A stretch of DNA of 64,000 bases from Gallalistipes aquisgranensis. Its GTDB lineage: Bacteria > Bacteroidota > Bacteroidia > Bacteroidales > Rikenellaceae. Positions 17,005 to 28,159 of this stretch are shown one piece after another. Made by a program: the position numbers and the translations under genes. Location of the stretch: contig NZ_JADCJY010000002.1 of the NCBI RefSeq assembly GCF_014982715.1, positions 1 through 64,000 of the forward strand, written 5' to 3'. Every line of letters begins with the position of its first letter. Position 1 is the first letter of the stretch. A model generated the notes under the pieces. That model was not told where the DNA came from. It searched no databases and saw only the letters and a program-made list of their open reading frames with translations.

Positions 17005-17038
17005 ACAAAAAGGGGTATCCGCGACCTGCGGATACCCC
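17005..17038 (-). terminator. Intrinsic terminator of the hexuronate operon
   Basis: An 11-bp stem (GGGGTATCCGC at 17012-17022 pairs with 17028-17038) with a 5-base loop. On the minus strand it is followed by five T. It lies 22 bases after the uxuA stop. Confidence 0.85.
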
Positions 17039-17060: not shown

Positions 17061-18236
17061 CTATTTCTTATACAGGCTTTTGGCGATTCCCATCTCCAGA
17101 CCACGCAGTTCGGCCAGACCGCGCAGGCGGCCGATGCACGAATATCCGGGATTGGTCTTCTTCTTCAGGTCGTCCACCATCTGGTGTCCATGGTCGGGAC
17201 GCATCGGGATCGACACCCCGCGACGCTGCTGCAACTCCAGCAGGGCCTTCATCACGCCGTACATGTCCACGTCTCCTTCCAGGTGGTTCGCTTCGTAGAA
17301 GTTCCCCTCCTCATCGCGCTTCGTACTGCGCAGATGCACGAAACCGACCCGTTCGCCGAACTCCTCCATCATGGCGGCCAGCTCGTTGTCGCTGCGCACG
17401 CCGAAGGAGCCCGTGCAGAGACACAGCCCGTTCGATTTGTTGGGAACCACCTCGATCAGTTTGCGGAAGTCGTCCGCCGTAGAAAGGATACGCGGCAACC
17501 CGAGAATCGGATAGGGAGGATCGTCCGGGTGAATTACCATCTCCACGCCCACCTCGTCGGCCACGGGCGTAATCTCCTTCAGGAAGTAGATCAGGTTCGC
17601 ACGCAGTTTGTCGGCGTCGATATCCTTGTAACGGTCGAGCGCCTCCTGGAACTGGGCCACGGTGAAACTCTCCTCCGAACCCGGCAGACCGGCGATCATG
17701 TTGCGGGTCAGAAGCTCCTTGTCGGCCTCGGTCATCTGGTCGTAACGGGCTTTGGCCTTGGCCTTGTCAGCCTCGCTGTACTCCTTCTCCGCTCCGGGAC
17801 GCTTCAGGATAAAGAGGTCGAACGCCATGAAGGCGGCACGCTCGAAGCGGAGCGCCTTCGAACCGTCGGGCAGTGTATAGGCCAGGTCGGTCCGCGTCCA
17901 GTCAAGCACCGGCATGAAGTTGTAGGTCACGGTATAGATACCGCAGGCCGCCAGATTGCGGATGCTCTGTTTGTAGTTGTCGATATATTTCTGGAAGTCG
18001 CCCGTCTGGGTCTTGATGTGCTCGTGTACGGGAACACTCTCCACGACACTCCACACCAGGCCGGCATCGGCGATCATCTTCTTGCGTTTCTCGATCTCCT
18101 CGATCGTCCACACCTCTCCGTTGGGAATATGATGCAGGGCATTGACCACATCGGTCGCACCCGCCTGGCGGATATCCCACAGGCTGACGGGATCGTTGGG
18201 CCCGTACCAACGCCAGGATTGTTTGCAAAGATACAT
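17061..18236 (-). CDS. uxuA: Mannonate dehydratase
   Basis: A 391-residue cytosolic enzyme that dehydrates D-mannonate to 2-keto-3-deoxygluconate, the last step of the glucuronate arm before KDG. The TIM-barrel features of UxuA are present: [20 protein letters not shown] at the N-terminus, [19 protein letters not shown] with metal-binding residues, [14 protein letters not shown], and [10 protein letters not shown] near the end. Length matches the family. It is the last gene of the six-gene minus-strand operon and is followed by a strong terminator. Confidence 0.96.
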
Positions 18237-18315: not shown

Positions 18316-19131
18316 TTAGATCGAGAATGCGTCGAAACCGCCGTCGATCACGGTCAGCGTACCCGAAACGAATTTCGAGGCGTCGCTGGCCAGCCACTGC
18401 AACGTTCCGAGCAGCTCCTCCGGTTCGCCGAAACGGCCGTAGGGAGTGTGTGCCAGAATCGTGTGCGAACGGGGCGTCAGGCTACCGTCGGGATTGGTCA
18501 GCAGGGTACGGTTCTGCTCGGTCAGGAAGAACCCGGGGGCGATCGCATTCACCCGCAGGCCCAAACCGAACTTGGTAGCCAGCTCGCCGCACATGTATTT
18601 GGTGAAGTTCACCACGGCTGCTTTAGCCACGCCGTAGCCGGCCACGCGGGTCAGCGGACGCAAGGCCGATTCCGAAGCGATGTTGATGATCGAACCTTCC
18701 TTCTGCTCCACCATCGCCTTGGCGAAGACCATCGTGGGGATCACCGTACCGAACAGGTTCAGTTCCACCACCTTCTTCACCGCGTCGATATCCAGGTCGA
18801 AGATCGTCTTGTCGGGAGCGATCGTAGCCCCGGCCATATTGCCGCCGGCACCGTTGATCAGCACGTCAATCCGGCCGTATTTGGCCATGATATCGTCGTA
18901 ATTCTTCTCCACCGCCTCTTTTTTCAACACGTCGGTATAGAGGAAAAGCACCTCTCCGCCTTTGGCCTTGACATCGGCGGCCAGTTTGTTGCCGGCCTCC
19001 TCGTTGCGGTCGAGAATCACCACTTTCGCACCCTCGGCGGCGAAATGGTGTACCATCGAATTGCCCAGGATTCCGGCGGCACCCGTAATAACGACCACCT
19101 TATCCTTTACGCTAAATAGTTCGTTTGCCAT
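18316..19131 (-). CDS. uxuB: SDR-family D-mannonate oxidoreductase (fructuronate reductase)
   Basis: A 271-residue short-chain dehydrogenase. It has the nucleotide-binding motif TGAAGILG (16-23), the NAG-type motif INGAGGN, a catalytic serine in IINIASESALRP and YGVAK (YxxxK). SDR proteins next to uxuA in Bacteroidetes, like B. subtilis YjmF/UxuB, interconvert D-fructuronate and D-mannonate. The assignment to this step rests on context. The galacturonate arm has its own unrelated reductase (uxaB) 6 kb away, so the SDR fills the only missing step. Confidence 0.85.
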   Translation of the reverse strand: MANELFSVKDKVVVITGAAGILGNSMVHHFAAEGAKVVILDRNEEAGNKLAADVKAKGGEVLFLYTDVLKKEAVEKNYDDIMAKYGRIDVLINGAGGNMAGATIAPDKTIFDLDIDAVKKVVELNLFGTVIPTMVFAKAMVEQKEGSIINIASESALRPLTRVAGYGVAKAAVVNFTKYMCGELATKFGLGLRVNAIAPGFFLTEQNRTLLTNPDGSLTPRSHTILAHTPYGRFGEPEELLGTLQWLASDASKFVSGTLTVIDGGFDAFSI

Positions 19132-19156: not shown

Positions 19157-20602
19157 TTATTTCAATACGATCACCTTGTATTTCGGCACGAGCGACTTCA
19201 TGATGACCCAGCCGATCAGATAAGCTACGGCGCAGACGCAGAAGATCACGAAGTAACCGGCCGGCTTTCCGACGAAGCCCATGAATGCCATCTGCGTCTT
19301 GTCCGCATGTACGAAGAGTTCGCCGGCGCAATACTGAAGAATCATCGAACCCACACCGCCGGCCATACCGCCGATACCCGTCACGGTCGCAATCGCGCTC
19401 TTGGGGAACATATCGCCCACGGTGGAGAAGATGTTGGCCGACCACGACTGGTGGGCCGCACCGCCGATACCGATCATGATAACCGGGAACCAGGGCGAAA
19501 TCGTACCCAGCGGCTGGGCCAGCAGCACCAGCAGCGGGAAGAAAGCGAAGATCAACATCGCCCGCATACGGGCGGCATAGGGATTCAGCCCCGTCTTGTT
19601 GATGATGATGGTCGGGAGCTTACCGCCGTAGATAGAGAGCATCGTGATGGCGTAGAGCGTGAAGATCAGCGCCATACCCAGGCCTTCCGAAGTCTTGATC
19701 CCGAACTGTGTGTTCAGGTAGGAAGGCGTCCAGAACAGGAAGAACCACCACACGCCGTCGGTCATGAACTTGCCCACAGCAAAAGCCCAAGTCTGTTTGA
19801 ACTTGAAGCACTCCAGGAAACCGATCTTCCGGCCTTCCGACTCCTCTTCCGCAGGGGCGAGGTCTTCGTGCCTGTCCTGCTCGATGTATTCGAGCTCGGC
19901 CTTGTTGACATGCTTGCTCCGGGCAGGTTTGTCATAAAGGAACACCCAGAAACCCATCCAGATAAAGCCCAGTGCACCGATGATGATGAAAGCCATCTCC
20001 CAGCCGAAAGCCTTGGCCAGCAGAGGGATAGATATCGGAGCCACCAATGCGCCGATCGAAGCGCCCGCATTGAAGATCGAGGTGGCGTAGGCACGGTCCT
20101 TCTTGGGGAAGTATTCGGCCGTCACCTTGATGGCTGCGGGGAAGTTACCGGCCTCACCAAGGGCGAGAATACACCGGGCAAACAGGAAGCAATACATGCT
20201 GACCGTAGCGATCACCACCATCGTGTCGCCCGTGGCGGCAGCCAGCTCGGCAGCAGAGTGCAGCCCTACGTGGGCCTCGGTCACCACGCCGCAGAGCGCG
20301 TGGAGGCAGGCGCCCACCGACCACACGCCGATCGACCAGAGGTATCCTTTCTTGGTCCCCATCCAGTCGATGAAACGGCCGGCGAAGAGCATGCAGATCG
20401 CATAGACGATCGAGAAGACGGAAGTGATCTTTCCGTAGTGGGATTCATCCCAGTGGAACTCGGGCTTGATAAACTCGTCCCACGTGAGGGAGAGCACCTG
20501 ACGGTCGAGATAGTTGACCGTCGTCGCAAAGAAGAGCATGGCGCAGATAACCCAACGGAAGTTGGTCATCTTCTGTTCTGATGCATTCAGTTTATTCATC
20601 AA
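19157..20602 (-). CDS. exuT: MFS hexuronate transporter (ExuT-like)
   Basis: A 481-residue major facilitator with about twelve transmembrane helices. It belongs to the anion:cation symporter subgroup (NYLDRQVLSLTWDEF after helix 1, ALGEAGNFPAAIKVTAEYFPKKDRAYATSIFNAGASIGA in the first half). These motifs match ExuT-type glucuronate/galacturonate:H+ symporters, and the gene sits inside the hexuronate operon between eda and the SDR gene. Compared with E. coli ExuT it has a slightly longer central loop (about 205-245, acidic). Substrate by context. Confidence 0.88.
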   Translation of the reverse strand: MMNKLNASEQKMTNFRWVICAMLFFATTVNYLDRQVLSLTWDEFIKPEFHWDESHYGKITSVFSIVYAICMLFAGRFIDWMGTKKGYLWSIGVWSVGACLHALCGVVTEAHVGLHSAAELAAATGDTMVVIATVSMYCFLFARCILALGEAGNFPAAIKVTAEYFPKKDRAYATSIFNAGASIGALVAPISIPLLAKAFGWEMAFIIIGALGFIWMGFWVFLYDKPARSKHVNKAELEYIEQDRHEDLAPAEEESEGRKIGFLECFKFKQTWAFAVGKFMTDGVWWFFLFWTPSYLNTQFGIKTSEGLGMALIFTLYAITMLSIYGGKLPTIIINKTGLNPYAARMRAMLIFAFFPLLVLLAQPLGTISPWFPVIMIGIGGAAHQSWSANIFSTVGDMFPKSAIATVTGIGGMAGGVGSMILQYCAGELFVHADKTQMAFMGFVGKPAGYFVIFCVCAVAYLIGWVIMKSLVPKYKVIVLK

Positions 20603-20671: not shown

Positions 20672-21343
20672 CTATTTACGGTATTTCGCAATAATCGCCA
20701 GTGCATTTTTACAAAGTTCCGTGATCGCGCCCCAGTTCTTGGCGGCCACCACGTCCTTCGGGAAGAGGTTGGAACCCATGCCCACGCAGGTCACACCCGC
20801 CTTCACCCAGGCCGAAAGATTCTCCTCGGTGGGCTCCACGGCACCCGTCACCATAATCATCGACCAGGGCATCGGCGCCTTCACGTTCTTCACGAACGAC
20901 GGACCGCCCACGTTGCCGGCCGGGAACACCTTGCAGATATCGCATCCCGCCTCCTGAGCGAAACCGATCTCCGACACCGAACCGCATCCCGGAGTGTAGG
21001 GAATCAGACGACGGTTGCAGATCTTGGCCACCTCGGGATTGAACAGCGGTCCCACCACGAAGTTGGCTCCCAACTGGATATAGAGCGCGGCCGTAGCCGG
21101 ATCGACCACCGAACCGACGCCCAGAATCATCTCGGGACACTCCTTGGCGGCGAATTTCACCAGTTCACCGAACACCTCCTGGGCGAAATCGCCCCGGTTG
21201 GTAAACTCGAATGCACGGACACCGCCCTCGTAGCACGCCTTCACCACGCTTTTAGCCACTTCGACATCCTGATTGTAAAACACGGGCACCATACCCGTTG
21301 AGGCCATCGCCGAGATGACCTGCACTTTCGAAAATTTTGCCAT
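20672..21343 (-). CDS. eda: KDPG / 4-hydroxy-2-oxoglutarate aldolase
   Basis: A 223-residue class I aldolase splitting 2-keto-3-deoxy-6-phosphogluconate to pyruvate and glyceraldehyde-3-phosphate. It shows the Schiff-base lysine in [12 protein letters not shown] (Lys138), the phosphate-binding TPGCGSVSE, and the catalytic glutamate in RAFEFTNRG (Glu46). Length is normal. It completes the pathway downstream of KdgK, whose gene lies 96 bases upstream in the same operon. Confidence 0.95.
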
Positions 21344-21439: not shown

Positions 21440-22480
21440 TTATCGGGACACACGGCCCGAACCGTCGCCCTTCATCAGGTTCTCCACCTCGGCTACGGTC
21501 ACCAGATTGAAGTCCCCGTAAATGGTGTGCTTCAGGCACGAAGCGGCCACGGCGAAGTTGAGCGCCTTCTGGTCCTCGCCCGTGTAGGTGAGCAAACCGT
21601 AGATCAGGCCACCCATGAACGAGTCGCCGCCGCCCACGCGGTCCACGATGTGGGTGATGTCGTAGCGGGGAGACTGGTAGAGGGTCTTGCCGTCATAGAG
21701 CACGCCGCCCCAGGTGTTGTGATTGGCGTTGATCGAACCGCGCAGGGTGATGATCACCTTCTTGGCGCGCGGGAATTTCTTCATCAGCTGGGTGCAGACG
21801 CTCTCGAATTCGGCCGCATTCACCTCGCCGGCGGTAGCCGTCACGTCGAAGCCTTCGGGCTTGATTCCGAACACCTTCTCGGCATCCTCTTCGTTGCCGA
21901 GGATCACGTCGCAGCCCTCCACGAGCGCGGGCATCACTTCGGCAGCCGTCTTGCCGTATTTCCAGAGGTTCTTGCGGTAGTTCAGGTCACACGACACGGT
22001 CACACCCAGCCGGTTGGCAGCCTTGATGGCTTCCAGGCAGGCGTCGGCGGCACCCTGACTCAGCGCGGGGGTGATTCCCGTCCAGTGGAACCAGTCGGCG
22101 CCCTTGAGCACCTCGTCCCAGTCGATCATGCCGGGTTTGATCTCGGCGATCGAAGAGTGGGCCCGGTCATAAACCACCTTGCTGGCACGCGCCACGGCAC
22201 CCGTCTCGAGGAAATAGATACCCAGCCGGTCGCCGCCGTAGATCACATGGTCGGTCTTCACGCCGTTCTTATGCAGATCCTTCACGCAGGCATCGGCGAT
22301 GTCGTTCTTGGGCAGACGGGTCACGAACTGTGCCTCCATACCGTAATTGGCCAGCGATACGGCCACATTGGCCTCGCCCCCGCCGAAGGTGGCAGTGAAC
22401 TCCTTGGCCTGACTGAATCTCAGATAACCGGGGGTTGCCAGACGCAACATGATCTCCCCGAATGTTACAACTTTTTTCAT
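21440..22480 (-). CDS. kdgK: 2-keto-3-deoxygluconate kinase (PfkB family)
   Basis: A 346-residue sugar kinase. It has the PfkB start MKKVVTFGEIMLRLATPGYLRF, the substrate-binding GGGEANVAVSLA, and the ATP/catalytic signature DRVGGGDSFMGGLIYGLL, where the Asp is the base. It phosphorylates KDG to KDPG. It is the second gene of the operon, 32 bases after uxaC. The substrate is inferred from the surrounding pathway; the family also contains ribo- and fructokinases. Confidence 0.92.
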   Translation of the reverse strand: MKKVVTFGEIMLRLATPGYLRFSQAKEFTATFGGGEANVAVSLANYGMEAQFVTRLPKNDIADACVKDLHKNGVKTDHVIYGGDRLGIYFLETGAVARASKVVYDRAHSSIAEIKPGMIDWDEVLKGADWFHWTGITPALSQGAADACLEAIKAANRLGVTVSCDLNYRKNLWKYGKTAAEVMPALVEGCDVILGNEEDAEKVFGIKPEGFDVTATAGEVNAAEFESVCTQLMKKFPRAKKVIITLRGSINANHNTWGGVLYDGKTLYQSPRYDITHIVDRVGGGDSFMGGLIYGLLTYTGEDQKALNFAVAASCLKHTIYGDFNLVTVAEVENLMKGDGSGRVSR

Positions 22481-22512: not shown

Positions 22513-23922
22513 TTATTTGTCGAACCCGAAATAGTTCCTGGCATTGTAATAGGAGATGTCGGCCACCATCTTCGAGAGGAACTTCATCTCGCTTCGGGGC
22601 AGACGTCCGCTCTCCACGTCCCCGCCGATCACGTTGCAGAGAATCCGGCGGAAATATTCGTGGCGCGGATAGGAGAGGAAGCTGCGGGAGTCGGTGAGCA
22701 TACCCACGAAACGGCTCAGCAGACCCAGCGCCGAAAGGGCATTCAACTGCTTGCGCATACCGTCCTCCTGATCGAGGAACCACCAGCCCGAACCGAGCTG
22801 CATCTTGCCCGGGACCGTCCCGTCGTTGAACGTGTAGGCCATCGTGGCGAGCACCTCGTTGTCCTTGGGATTCAGATTGTACAGAATCGTCTTGGCCAGT
22901 TTGCCAGCCGAATCGAGCCGGTCGAGGAACTTGTGGCCGGCAGCGGCACACTGTACGTCGTGGATGGCGTCGTAACCGGTGTCGGGACCCAGTATCTTGA
23001 ACATGCGGGTATTGTTGTTGCGGATCGCCCCGATATGGAACTGCTGCGTCCATCCCTTCTCGGCGTCCATCACGGCCAGATCGTACAGAATACCGCTCTT
23101 GAACTTGAGGTTCTCCTCTTCGGTGGGTTTCACGCCGCTCATCACCTTGGCGAAGATCTGCATCAGATCGCTCTCGGTGTAGTCCTCGGCATAGAAGGTC
23201 TCCAGCCCGTGGTCGGAGAGCCGGCACCCCATCTCGGCGAAGAAGTCGTGACGCTTCTGCAGCGCCTGCAACAGGTCTTCGTAATTTCGGATCTCCATGC
23301 CGGCGGCCTCGCCCAGCTTCTCGACATAAGCCTTGTATGCCACGGGATTCTCCACGGCCATCGCCTTGTCGGGACGCCATGCAGGGAACACCTTCACGGA
23401 AAATCCGCTCTCCTTGATTTTCTTATGGTACTCCAGCGAATCGGCCGGATCGTCGGTCGTGCAGACCACCTCCACGTTGCAGCGCTTCATCAGCCCCTGC
23501 GCCCGGAACTCCTCGGTCTGGAGCTTGGCGTTGCACTCCTCGTATATCTCGCGGGCTGTCTCGGGGCTCAGCAGCTTGTCGATCCCGAAGATGCGGGAGA
23601 GCTCCAGATGGGTCCAGTGGTAGAGCGGATTACGCATGGTGTAAGGCACCGTCTCGGCCCACTTTTCGAACTTCTCGTAGTCGGATTTCCCGCCCGTGAT
23701 GTACTCCTCGGGAACGCCGTTGCCCCGCATGGCCCGCCACTTGTAATGGTCGCCGCCCAACCATATTTCGGTCAGATTGCGGAACTGGTAGTTGTCCGCG
23801 ATCATCTGCGGGATCAGGTGGCAGTGGTAGTCGATGATCGGCAGGTTTTCCGCGCTTCCGTGATACAGCTCCTGAGCCGCATCGTTGGTAAGCATGAAGT
23901 TCTTATCAATAAACTTTTCCAT
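22513..23922 (-). CDS. uxaC: Glucuronate (uronate) isomerase
   Basis: A 469-residue enzyme isomerising D-glucuronate to D-fructuronate and D-galacturonate to D-tagaturonate, the entry step of both arms. Family features: IIDYHCHLIPQMIADN (metal-binding HxH-type), WLGGDHYKWRAMRGNGV, VCTTDDPADSLEYH, HIGAIRNNNTRM, and LTDSRSFLSYPRHEYFRRIL at the end. Length is standard. It is the first gene of the minus-strand operon, reading away from the lacI-type gene. Confidence 0.97.
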   Translation of the reverse strand: MEKFIDKNFMLTNDAAQELYHGSAENLPIIDYHCHLIPQMIADNYQFRNLTEIWLGGDHYKWRAMRGNGVPEEYITGGKSDYEKFEKWAETVPYTMRNPLYHWTHLELSRIFGIDKLLSPETAREIYEECNAKLQTEEFRAQGLMKRCNVEVVCTTDDPADSLEYHKKIKESGFSVKVFPAWRPDKAMAVENPVAYKAYVEKLGEAAGMEIRNYEDLLQALQKRHDFFAEMGCRLSDHGLETFYAEDYTESDLMQIFAKVMSGVKPTEEENLKFKSGILYDLAVMDAEKGWTQQFHIGAIRNNNTRMFKILGPDTGYDAIHDVQCAAAGHKFLDRLDSAGKLAKTILYNLNPKDNEVLATMAYTFNDGTVPGKMQLGSGWWFLDQEDGMRKQLNALSALGLLSRFVGMLTDSRSFLSYPRHEYFRRILCNVIGGDVESGRLPRSEMKFLSKMVADISYYNARNYFGFDK

Positions 23923-24011: not shown

Positions 24012-24019
24012 CAAAAGTA
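24012..24019 (-). promoter_or_regulatory. -7 box of the uxaC operon (TACTTTTG)
   Basis: Exact TAnnTTTG on the minus strand. The -33 region for this promoter falls inside the palindrome at 24034-24055. The leader to uxaC would be about 80 bases. Confidence 0.6.
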
Positions 24020-24033
24020 TAAAAAAATTCCGT

Positions 24034-24055
24034 AAATCGTGCACGTGCACGATTT
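24034..24055. promoter_or_regulatory. 22-bp perfect palindrome, probable LacI-type operator
   Basis: The half-site AAATCGTGCAC is followed immediately by its exact reverse complement. It lies between the divergent uxaC operon and the LacI-family regulator gene and overlaps the expected -33 region of both promoters. Even length with a central CG is typical of LacI/PurR-family operators. Confidence 0.8.
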
Positions 24056-24063
24056 TTTTTGCA

Positions 24064-24071
24064 TATCTTTG
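24064..24071 (+). promoter_or_regulatory. -7 box of the regulator-uxaB-uxaA operon (TATCTTTG)
   Basis: Exact TAnnTTTG 9 bases downstream of the palindrome and 51 bases before the regulator start. Confidence 0.6.
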
Positions 24072-24122
24072 TTTTGGTCTGCGGAGAGCGCTCTCCCGGC
24101 CGCTAAATTCGGGACGTTCGAC

Positions 24123-25199
24123 ATGGGAAACGACGACAAGAAAATCACGATCAAGGACGTGGCGAGACTGGCCGGCCTTTCGAAAGGGACCGTCGACCGC
24201 GTGGTGCACAACCGGGGCGAGGTCTCCGAAGAGAGCAAACGCCGCGTACTGGAAGTCATCCAGCAGATCGGCTACAAACCCAACATCTACGCCTCGCTGC
24301 TGGCCTCGAAAAAACACTACACCCTGCTCTGCCTGATTCCCCGGTTCCGCCCGGGCGAATATTGGGAACTGGTCTACACGGGTATCGGACGGGCCGTGGA
24401 AAAGGCCCGCAGCTACAACATCGGGATCGACGTGATCTCTTACGACCAGTTCGACCGGGAGTCGTTCCGCCGTGCGGCGCGCCAACTGCTGGAGGGCAAT
24501 CCGCAGGCCGTGATGCTGGCCCCCATCTACCGGGACGACACGCTGGCCCTTACCGCGGAACTCGCCGCCCGGGGCGTACCTTATGTATATATCGACTCCC
24601 GTCTGGAAGGCAGCGGCTATCTGGCTTATTTCGGCATGCCGATGTACCAGAGCGGCTATCTGGCCGCCAGTCTGCTGACCGAACAGCCGGGTATCGGCGA
24701 AATCGCCAACTTCCGTATCGACAGGGGAGGCGCCCAGCCGCAGGACAATCCCACCCGGAAACGCAGGGAAGGCTTCATGGCCTATCTGGCAGAAAACCTG
24801 CCGGAGTGCCGGGTATTCGAGGACTTCATCAGGCCCTACGATCCAGAATACAACCTGCGGGTGCTGGACGAATTTTTCGAAAAGCATCCCCGCGTGCGAC
24901 ACATCGTCACCTTCAATTCGCGCGTGCATCTGATTTCGGAATACCTCGAAAAGAGGGGGCTCGGCGACCGGATCGTGGTGGGATTCGACAAACTCGCCGG
25001 AAATCTCGAAGGGGTGCGGAAAGGATACGTCAAATACCTCATCACCCAGCGCACCGAAACCCAGGTCTACCGGGGAATCAACGCCATCATCGAACACATG
25101 GTCTTCCACACGGCCCCGGCCGAGCAGGACAACTTCATGTCGATGGACATCCTGACCCGGTACAACGTGGACTACTACTCGGACATATACGAATTCTGA
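24123..25199 (+). CDS. LacI-family transcriptional regulator of hexuronate genes
   Basis: A 358-residue DNA-binding regulator. The N-terminal helix-turn-helix and hinge read TIKDVARLAGLSKGTVDRVVHNRGEVSEESKRRVLEVIQQIGYKPN, typical of LacI but with VDRVVHNRG as in Bacteroidetes members. A periplasmic-binding-protein-like effector domain follows (about 65-350). It most likely senses a hexuronate intermediate and represses both divergent operons through the adjacent palindrome, including its own. It is the first gene of the plus-strand operon. The start at 24123 (MGNDDKK) is downstream of the promoter box, which excludes the longer frame from 24039. Confidence 0.9.
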   Translation: MGNDDKKITIKDVARLAGLSKGTVDRVVHNRGEVSEESKRRVLEVIQQIGYKPNIYASLLASKKHYTLLCLIPRFRPGEYWELVYTGIGRAVEKARSYNIGIDVISYDQFDRESFRRAARQLLEGNPQAVMLAPIYRDDTLALTAELAARGVPYVYIDSRLEGSGYLAYFGMPMYQSGYLAASLLTEQPGIGEIANFRIDRGGAQPQDNPTRKRREGFMAYLAENLPECRVFEDFIRPYDPEYNLRVLDEFFEKHPRVRHIVTFNSRVHLISEYLEKRGLGDRIVVGFDKLAGNLEGVRKGYVKYLITQRTETQVYRGINAIIEHMVFHTAPAEQDNFMSMDILTRYNVDYYSDIYEF

Positions 25200-25219: not shown

Positions 25220-26656
25220 ATGCAACCTCTGAACAGAAACAACGCAGCCAACAAACGCTATCCCGAACGGATCATCCAGTTCGGGGAAGGGAACTTCCTC
25301 CGCGCCTTCGTGGACTGGATCGTGTGGAACATGAACGAAAAGGCCGGATTCAACAGCGGCGTAGTGGTCGTACAGCCCATCGAACGGGGCATGGTGGACA
25401 TGCTCAACGCCCAGGACGGCCTCTATCACCTCAACCTGCAGGGAATCGACAAGGGCCAGGAGGTCGACAGCATCCAGCTGATCGACGTCATCAGCCGCGG
25501 ACTGAACCCCTACACCCAGTTCGACGAATACCTGAAGCTGGCCGAAAATCCCGATATCCGTTTCGTGATCTCCAACACCACCGAAGCGGGCATCGCCTTC
25601 GATCCCACGTGCAAACCGGACGACAAGCCGGCCAAATCCTACCCCGGCAAGCTGACCCAGCTGCTCTACCACCGGTTCAGAACCTTCAACGGCGCCGCCG
25701 ACAAAGGGCTCATCATCTTCCCCTGCGAGCTGATCTTCCTCAACGGCAAGGAGCTCAAGAAGTGCATCGAACAGTACATCGACCTGTGGAATCTGGGCGA
25801 CGACTTCCGCCAATGGTTCGAAACGGCCTGTGGGGTTTACTGCACGCTCGTCGACCGGATCGTACCGGGCTATCCGAAAGACACCATCGACGAAATCCTC
25901 GCCAAGATCGGCGTGGAGGACAAGCTGGTGGTCAAGGGCGAGATCTTCCACCTGTGGGTGATCGAGGCTCCCGAGTCGGTCGCCAAAGAGTTTCCCGCCG
26001 ACAAGGCCGGGCTGAACGTGCTCTTCGTCCCCAGCGAGAAACCCTACCACGAGAGGAAAGTGACCCTGCTCAACGGCCCGCACACCGTGCTTTCGCCCGT
26101 GGGCTATCTTTCGGGTCTGAACACCGTGAAAGAGTGCGTGGAAGACCCCGTAATCGGCAAGTTCGTCCACAAGGTGATGTTCGACGAACTGCTGGAAACG
26201 CTCGACCTGCCCAAACCGGAACTGGAAAAGTTCGCCCACGACGTACTGGAGCGGTTCCGCAACCCGTTCGTAAAGCACTTCGTGACGAGCATCATGCTCA
26301 ACTCCTTCCCGAAGTTCAAGACCCGCGACCTGCCCGGACTGAAAATCTATCTGGAACGCAAAGGCGCTCTGCCCCGCGGACTGGTACTGGGTCTGGCCGG
26401 CATCATCACTTATTATAAAGGCGGCAAGCGCGGCAACGACGAGATCATGCCCAACGACGACCAGGCAATCATCGACCTGCTGAAACGGCTCTGGGCCACG
26501 GGCGATCCCTGCCATGTGGCCGAAGGAGTGCTGGGAGCGGAATTCATCTGGGGCGAGGACCTCAACAAGATTCCCGGCCTCACCGCCCAACTCTGCGCCG
26601 ATCTGAAACTGATCCAGGCCGAGGGCATGGCAGCAGCCGTGAAACAAATCGTATAA
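25220..26656 (+). CDS. uxaB: Tagaturonate reductase (altronate oxidoreductase)
   Basis: A 478-residue NAD-dependent enzyme of the polyol/mannitol-type long-chain dehydrogenase family. It reduces D-tagaturonate to D-altronate in galacturonate breakdown. It shows RIIQFGEGNFLRAFVDWIVWNMN at the nucleotide-binding end, VISNTTEAGI, and the catalytic stretch KVTLLNGPHTVLSPVGYLSG, where the Lys is the expected general base. It is 20 bases after the regulator and 12 bases before uxaA. Unrelated in fold to the SDR enzyme serving the glucuronate arm. Confidence 0.95.
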   Translation: MQPLNRNNAANKRYPERIIQFGEGNFLRAFVDWIVWNMNEKAGFNSGVVVVQPIERGMVDMLNAQDGLYHLNLQGIDKGQEVDSIQLIDVISRGLNPYTQFDEYLKLAENPDIRFVISNTTEAGIAFDPTCKPDDKPAKSYPGKLTQLLYHRFRTFNGAADKGLIIFPCELIFLNGKELKKCIEQYIDLWNLGDDFRQWFETACGVYCTLVDRIVPGYPKDTIDEILAKIGVEDKLVVKGEIFHLWVIEAPESVAKEFPADKAGLNVLFVPSEKPYHERKVTLLNGPHTVLSPVGYLSGLNTVKECVEDPVIGKFVHKVMFDELLETLDLPKPELEKFAHDVLERFRNPFVKHFVTSIMLNSFPKFKTRDLPGLKIYLERKGALPRGLVLGLAGIITYYKGGKRGNDEIMPNDDQAIIDLLKRLWATGDPCHVAEGVLGAEFIWGEDLNKIPGLTAQLCADLKLIQAEGMAAAVKQIV

Positions 26657-26668
26657 TTCCTCCCGTTT

Positions 26669-28159
26669 ATGGCAACATTCATTCGGATCAATCCGGCCGA
26701 CAACGTGGCCGTAGCCATCGAACCCCTGCACAAGGGCGACAGCGTGCAGATCGGGGAAGAGTTGATCGTACTGGCCGCGGATATCCCCGCCGGACACAAA
26801 TTCGCGCTGAAAGATTTCGCACCGGGCGAACACATCGTCAAATACGGCTACCCGATCGGGCATGCCCGCGAGGCGATCGCCCGGGGAGCCTGGGTCAACG
26901 AAAAGAATATCAAAACCAATCTGGACGGCGTGCTGGAATACACTTACCGGCCGCAAACGGTGACGCTCGACATTCCGAAGAGCGACCGTACGTTCCGGGG
27001 CTACCGTCGTGCCGACGGTTCGGTGGGTACGCGCAACGAAATCTGGATCGTCCCCACCGTGGGCTGCGTGAACGGAGCCGTGGGCCGGTTGGCCGAGATG
27101 CTCCGGGCCGAGACGAAAGGCGAAGGGGTGGACGCCATCGCCGCGTTCCCCCACAACTACGGATGCTCCCAGCTCGGAGGTGACCACGAGAATACGCGCA
27201 AGATTCTGCGGGACCTGGTGCTCCATCCCAATGCGGGCGGCGTACTGGTAGTGGGTCTCGGCTGCGAAAACAACCAGTTGTCGGCTTTCCGGGAGATGCT
27301 CGGCAAGGTCGATCCTGCCCGCATCAAGTTTATGGAGACCCAGAAAGTGAAGGGCGACGAACTGGAAGAGGGCATGCGGCTCCTGCGCGAAATCTACGAG
27401 GTGGTCCGGAAGGACGAACGCACCGACGTGCCCGTCTCCGAACTGCGCGTGGGCCTCAAATGCGGCGGTTCGGACGGATTCTCGGGCATTACGGCCAATC
27501 CCCTGCTGGGAGTCTTTTCCGACTGGCTGACGGCGCAGGGCGGCACGACCGTGCTGACCGAAGTACCGGAGATGTTCGGCGCCGAAACGATCCTGATGAA
27601 CCGTTGCCAGGACGAAGCCACGTTCGACAAGACCGTCCACCTGATCAACGATTTCAAGGAGTATTTCATCCGGAACGAACAGCCGATCTACGAGAACCCC
27701 TCGCCGGGCAACAAGGCAGGCGGCATATCCACGCTGGAAGAGAAATCGCTGGGCTGCACGCAGAAGTGCGGCAAGGCGACCGTACGCGACGTACTGATGT
27801 ACGGCGACCGAATCAAAACGCGCGGACTGAACCTGCTTTCGGCCCCGGGAAACGATCTGGTGGCGGCCACGGCACTCGCCTCGGCCGGCTGCCAGATGGT
27901 ACTCTTCACCACGGGACGGGGCACCCCTTTCGGCACCTACGTCCCCACCATGAAGATTTCCACCAACAGCACCCTGGCAGCCAACAAGCCCAACTGGATC
28001 GACTTCAACGCGGGAGTCATCGTGGAGAACCGGACGATCGGAGAGACCTGCGCCGATTTCACGGACTACGTGATCCGCGTGGCCAGTGGTGAAAAAGTCA
28101 ACAACGAAAAGAGCGGTTTCCGCGAGATCGCCATCTTCAAAACGGGCGTAACGCTCTGA
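26669..28159 (+). CDS. uxaA: Altronate dehydratase
   Basis: A 496-residue iron-dependent dehydratase converting D-altronate to 2-keto-3-deoxygluconate. The N-terminal SAF domain (about 12-80, DNVAVAIEPLHKGD) joins the large UxaA domain with its conserved Cys/His motifs: NYGCSQLGGDHENT, GLGCENNQ, LKCGGSDGFSG and CTQKCGKATV. Full-length fusion of the two domains as in E. coli. It is the last gene of the plus-strand hexuronate operon. Confidence 0.96.
   Translation: MATFIRINPADNVAVAIEPLHKGDSVQIGEELIVLAADIPAGHKFALKDFAPGEHIVKYGYPIGHAREAIARGAWVNEKNIKTNLDGVLEYTYRPQTVTLDIPKSDRTFRGYRRADGSVGTRNEIWIVPTVGCVNGAVGRLAEMLRAETKGEGVDAIAAFPHNYGCSQLGGDHENTRKILRDLVLHPNAGGVLVVGLGCENNQLSAFREMLGKVDPARIKFMETQKVKGDELEEGMRLLREIYEVVRKDERTDVPVSELRVGLKCGGSDGFSGITANPLLGVFSDWLTAQGGTTVLTEVPEMFGAETILMNRCQDEATFDKTVHLINDFKEYFIRNEQPIYENPSPGNKAGGISTLEEKSLGCTQKCGKATVRDVLMYGDRIKTRGLNLLSAPGNDLVAATALASAGCQMVLFTTGRGTPFGTYVPTMKISTNSTLAANKPNWIDFNAGVIVENRTIGETCADFTDYVIRVASGEKVNNEKSGFREIAIFKTGVTL

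Follow-up and report, generated by a model that had tools for sequence, protein, structure and literature searches.

A 22-bp perfect palindrome situated between two divergent groups of hexuronate catabolism genes is predicted to be bound as an operator by the LacI-family regulator encoded next to it, which in this lineage would repress both divergent promoters and be released by a uronate intermediate. We give this reading a probability of roughly 0.87. The palindrome, AAATCGTGCACGTGCACGATTT, occupies positions 24034..24055 (a strandless feature) of the window, the term used here for the whole 64,000-nucleotide stretch of DNA that was analysed; it was read directly from the sequence, and its conservation alongside the regulator supports the proposal of an operator. 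The earlier note had made the right observation and interpreted it in a way that proved largely right, and the operator prediction that results is convincing, its kind being already known. Similar sites accompany the repressor in many gut Bacteroidales, which makes this a well-supported but ordinary gene switch.

The palindrome and its two promoter boxes

What the computation shows is the palindrome with its boxes, how these are conserved, and an association of the site with the regulator and with uronate genes. AAATCGTGCACGTGCACGATTT is made of two 11-bp arms with no spacer, its centre is a CpG, and the gene next door encodes a LacI protein. Perfect palindromes of 22 bp are expected by chance about 0.015 times per 64 kb (from 4^-11 arithmetic), and no other copy was found in the 2.99 Mb genome at up to three mismatches. 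A second perfect palindrome, GGAGAGCGCTCTCC, at 24083-24096 in the leader of the regulator gene, is not conserved in close relatives and was regarded as chance.

TAnnTTTG is the promoter consensus of sigma-ABfr, the primary sigma factor of Bacteroidetes, as summarised in PMC7366714, and exact matches to this -7 element flank the palindrome on both sides. The box TACTTTTG (24012..24019, minus strand) is assigned to the promoter of the uxaC operon and TATCTTTG (24064..24071, plus strand) to that of the regulator-uxaB-uxaA operon; both are invariant in close relatives, they point apart, and no further TAnnTTTG occurs between the two divergent genes. Assuming that transcription starts about 7 nt past each box, the -33 position of either promoter comes to lie near 24042, within the palindrome, and so the earlier description of a perfect palindrome overlapping the -33 zone of two exact, opposite-facing -7 boxes is borne out. 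The spacing is uneven, with 20 nt from the palindrome centre to the plus-strand box and 26 nt to the minus-strand box. The TTTG expected at about -33 in sigma-ABfr promoters is absent from both promoters, and CGTG half-sites fill that zone. This is weak evidence against promoter function because a previous global search in a different Bacteroidetes species missed the element, whose spacing varies (PMC7366714).

The palindrome also scores as a plus-strand terminator-like stem followed by T, as would be expected if palindrome and T-run formed an intrinsic terminator or some other RNA hairpin. However, both predicted starts are downstream of it, so that neither operon would transcribe across it, and no plus-strand gene reads in from the left. 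Terminator-like matches in the region are not in excess (9 vs 11.7 in shuffles), and conservation is seen in the half-site sequence and in its register with the -7 boxes, while the arms are imperfect in many relatives. Given this position and an Rfam match that stays below threshold, the hairpin reading was dropped as having almost no probability, and an operator remains the preferred reading of the site.

Genes flanking the palindrome

Nine genes are present around the site: uxaC, kdgK, eda, an MFS transporter gene, uxuB and uxuA on the minus strand, and lacI, uxaB and uxaA on the plus strand. The regulator (24123..25199, plus strand) combines an N-terminal LacI HTH domain (PF00356, 59.6 bits vs a cut-off of 27) with a C-terminal periplasmic-binding-type effector domain (PF13407, 98.4 bits vs a cut-off of 35.1), both over the curated cut-off, and the palindromic, operator-like site with a central CpG close to its own gene is a further LacI-family trait. 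Downstream on the same strand are uxaB, encoding tagaturonate reductase (25220..26656; NF002969 over cut-off), and uxaA, which encodes a member of the altronate/galactarate dehydratase family (26669..28159; PF20629, PF04295 and PF08666, with TIGR03248 under cut-off) that, judged by its context, is altronate dehydratase.

On the minus strand, uxaC encodes uronate isomerase (22513..23922; NF002794 over cut-off, a single copy in this genome), kdgK a PfkB-type sugar kinase annotated as KDG kinase (21440..22480; PF00294, resembling the kinase half of NF041633), and eda a KDPG/KHG aldolase (20672..21343; NF005499 over cut-off). They are followed by the gene for the MFS transporter (19157..20602; PF07690), whose context makes it a probable hexuronate importer, and by uxuB, encoding an SDR-type mannonate oxidoreductase (18316..19131; NF006132 over cut-off), and uxuA, encoding mannonate dehydratase (17061..18236; TIGR00695 over cut-off). 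Directly past uxuA, the stem scan placed a strong terminator-like stem of 11 pairs with a T-run (17012..17038, minus strand), which likely marks the end of the six-gene operon. Scanned along their coding strands, the two operons show no internal TAnnTTTG apart from one within the first codons of uxuA, and no terminator-like stem on those strands interrupts either of them. With so few internal boxes and such uninterrupted gene runs, a single promoter on each side, from which the genes may be co-transcribed, is plausible.

Conservation alongside the regulator

In an alignment of the window with L002, L046 and L003, the region as a whole has diverged, yet the core of the palindrome and the two boxes show no change; L002 and L046 are apparently one sister genome, and the L003 regulator is 79% identical. 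More widely, the dyad YCGTGNNCGNNCACGR, with the core CGTGNACGTNCACG, is found with at most two mismatches in 51 of the 62 regions upstream of regulator homologues with more than 40% identity, while dinucleotide shuffles give an expectation of 0.2. It is mostly found once per locus, its usual place being the gap that separates the regulator gene from a divergently oriented kdgK-eda-MFS or uxaC operon.

Across 150 genomes, the exact symmetric core, full symmetry being a criterion chosen once the data had been seen, is present in 9/13 family genomes with a close orthologue of the regulator vs 0/137 without one (Fisher p ~1e-11, kinship left uncorrected); when exact matches short of full symmetry are included, the counts are 9/13 vs 6/137. 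Two of the orthologue-bearing genomes without the exact core (G079 and G127) have one-mismatch sites adjoining the regulator, and in the other two (G012 and G032) the surroundings of the regulator hold no uronate genes. The earlier note had named, as one outcome that would refute its idea, a palindrome not conserved together with the regulator in related genomes; the idea survived this check strongly.

The site tracks not only the regulator but also the target enzymes. In L034 and L036 it lies between uxaC and uxaB rather than before the regulator, and in G104 it occurs at two divergent gaps, kdgK/regulator and uxaC/uxaB. A few regulator homologues (L004, L048, L049 and L102-L104) have neither the site nor uronate neighbours, which counts against the operator reading. 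Four homologues with 49-50% identity (L102, L103, L104 and L136) carry a stop codon in the frame of the match and no operator upstream; these are apparently decaying copies, or the stop merely falls at the end of the match.

These distributions also bear on whether the site might serve another regulator, for example a global one of the Crp type, as could be supposed from the Crp-like motif predicted upstream of uxuRBA in Bacteroides (PMC3878776). The exact core is unique in this genome, unlike a site for global control, and its occurrence across genomes follows that of the LacI regulator; we consider such an assignment very improbable.

Geometry of the enzyme-side and regulator-side promoters

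The placement of -7 boxes relative to the operator centre was counted in the 54 loci with a site, and the counts are not independent of kinship. An enzyme-side box lies 17-27 nt from the centre in 43/54 loci, mostly at 25-27 nt, and a regulator-side box lies within the same range in 20/54, the background rate for this range being about 3%. This difference indicates that the conserved design is probably an operator that covers the enzyme promoter across its -33/spacer region.

The fixed register on the enzyme side, set against its rarity on the regulator side, would also be consistent with a regulator that binds the palindrome chiefly to control the enzyme operon and affects the regulator-uxaB-uxaA promoter weakly or incidentally. 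We consider this unlikely: the window, L046 and L003 share an invariant regulator-side box at 19-21 nt from the centre of the operator, and the products of uxaB and uxaA act in the same pathway. The two-sided control proposed in the earlier note has good support in this lineage and in roughly a third of the rest. The earlier suggestion that one LacI-type repressor could silence nine genes, itself included, is supported with the qualification that the conserved geometry is that of the enzyme promoter, while the predicted control of the regulator's own promoter is clear here but variable elsewhere.

Proposed mechanism

From sequence data we infer binding, repression rather than activation, the dimer mode, co-transcription and the effector as follows. 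A regulator dimer would hold the two CGTG half-sites and, like other LacI proteins, place its hinge region at the central CpG; the bound dimer would cover the -33/spacer region of the two divergent sigma-ABfr-type promoters, excluding RNA polymerase. On the enzyme side, this would silence the six-gene uxaC-kdgK-eda-MFS-uxuB-uxuA operon; in this lineage the regulator-uxaB-uxaA operon would be silenced too, so that the regulator would repress itself. The design would be compact, given that a single dimer could shut two divergent Bacteroidetes promoters. An intracellular uronate intermediate would then free the operator. Judged from gene content alone, KDG is the likeliest effector, as the branches found with this type of operator, kdgK-eda-KduI-SDR operons among them, have it in common.

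Specificity and extent of the predicted regulon

The LacI paralogues linked to uxuBA (L061-L073) are members of the same family, with 34-39% identity, and also have a conserved palindromic site upstream, with their linkage being to genes of the mannonate branch. They differ from the window regulator in carrying another dyad, GTGTGTGCGCACAC, and in occupying a separate part of the tree, which suggests that the half-site changed between paralogues and that the pair could serve to map recognition residues. In the regulator tree, which was a quick one, the window regulator falls in a 60-row clade in which 46 rows have the CGTG operator, 14 have no clear one and none has the TGTG type. The other 41 rows of uronate-linked LacI proteins are of mixed types and include regulators whose gene order, uxaC/regulator-uxaB, matches that of the window.

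The window's genome holds another uxuA-uxuB pair, with 41% and 51% identity to the one in the window, at L210:7648-9656 (C1:683650 onward); it adjoins long open frames and lacks the operator site. Control of both hexuronate arms, as proposed earlier, would therefore apply to the nine-gene locus and not extend to this second pair. Genome-wide, two-mismatch matches are many and mostly due to chance. The relaxed consensus has 13 exact matches in the genome, most of them within open reading frames; the one in L198 lies at the start of what we read as an rseC-like gene, and the one in L197 is weak.

Relation to known LacI-family systems

Classical operators of the LacI/PurR type are two-fold symmetric with a central CpG, and LacI proteins carry an N-terminal HTH and a periplasmic-binding-type effector domain. 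The system described here shares the two-fold symmetry, the central CpG, the LacI HTH and the periplasmic-binding-type domain, and differs in its CGTG half-sites and in having Bacteroidetes TAnnTTTG promoters in place of sigma-70 ones.

In Bacteroides, of the same bacterial order, comparative genomics of the sort used here has predicted the LacI-family regulons of KdgR (BT0487), UxaR (BT0824) and UxuR (BT1434) (Ravcheev et al. 2013, PMC3878776), regulators that are also covered by a LacI survey (PMC4052901). These are local regulators of glucuronate and galacturonate catabolism, and the window regulator resembles them in its linkage to the catabolic genes of both sugars. Whereas in Bacteroides the pathway is split among three regulators, here one regulator gene accompanies uxaCBA, uxuBA and kdgK-eda. 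LacI-type regulons for these pathways had thus already been predicted in Bacteroides, and the present case extends the kind to a lineage with a merged gene order. The new elements are the consensus, its clade-wide conservation and the enzyme-side promoter as the probable conserved target. YCGTGNNCGNNCACGR offers a testable candidate operator for a Bacteroidales LacI clade represented here mostly by metagenome-assembled genomes, and it may help to forecast when these bacteria use sugars derived from pectin and glucuronate.

A palindrome upstream of fabI

Besides the uronate site, the only strong non-coding match to the relaxed consensus is upstream of fabI. The palindrome CGTGNACGNGCACG precedes the fabI start by exactly 85 bp in both sampled members of the genus, at L079:1501-1514 in the window's own genome (C1:250803-250816) and at L168:1734-1747 in the other (G018 C44), and a similar palindrome upstream of fabI was found in 0/8 other genomes of the family. 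It is doubtful, with the odds well against it, that the targets of the three Bacteroides regulators (galacturonate, glucuronate and KDG) have been merged here under one two-way operator whose regulator also reaches fabI; if true, such a reach would tie uronate supply to fatty-acid synthesis. In the window's genome the fabI palindrome is part of a 20-bp hairpin, and it may serve as a second operator or else be a terminator-like element.
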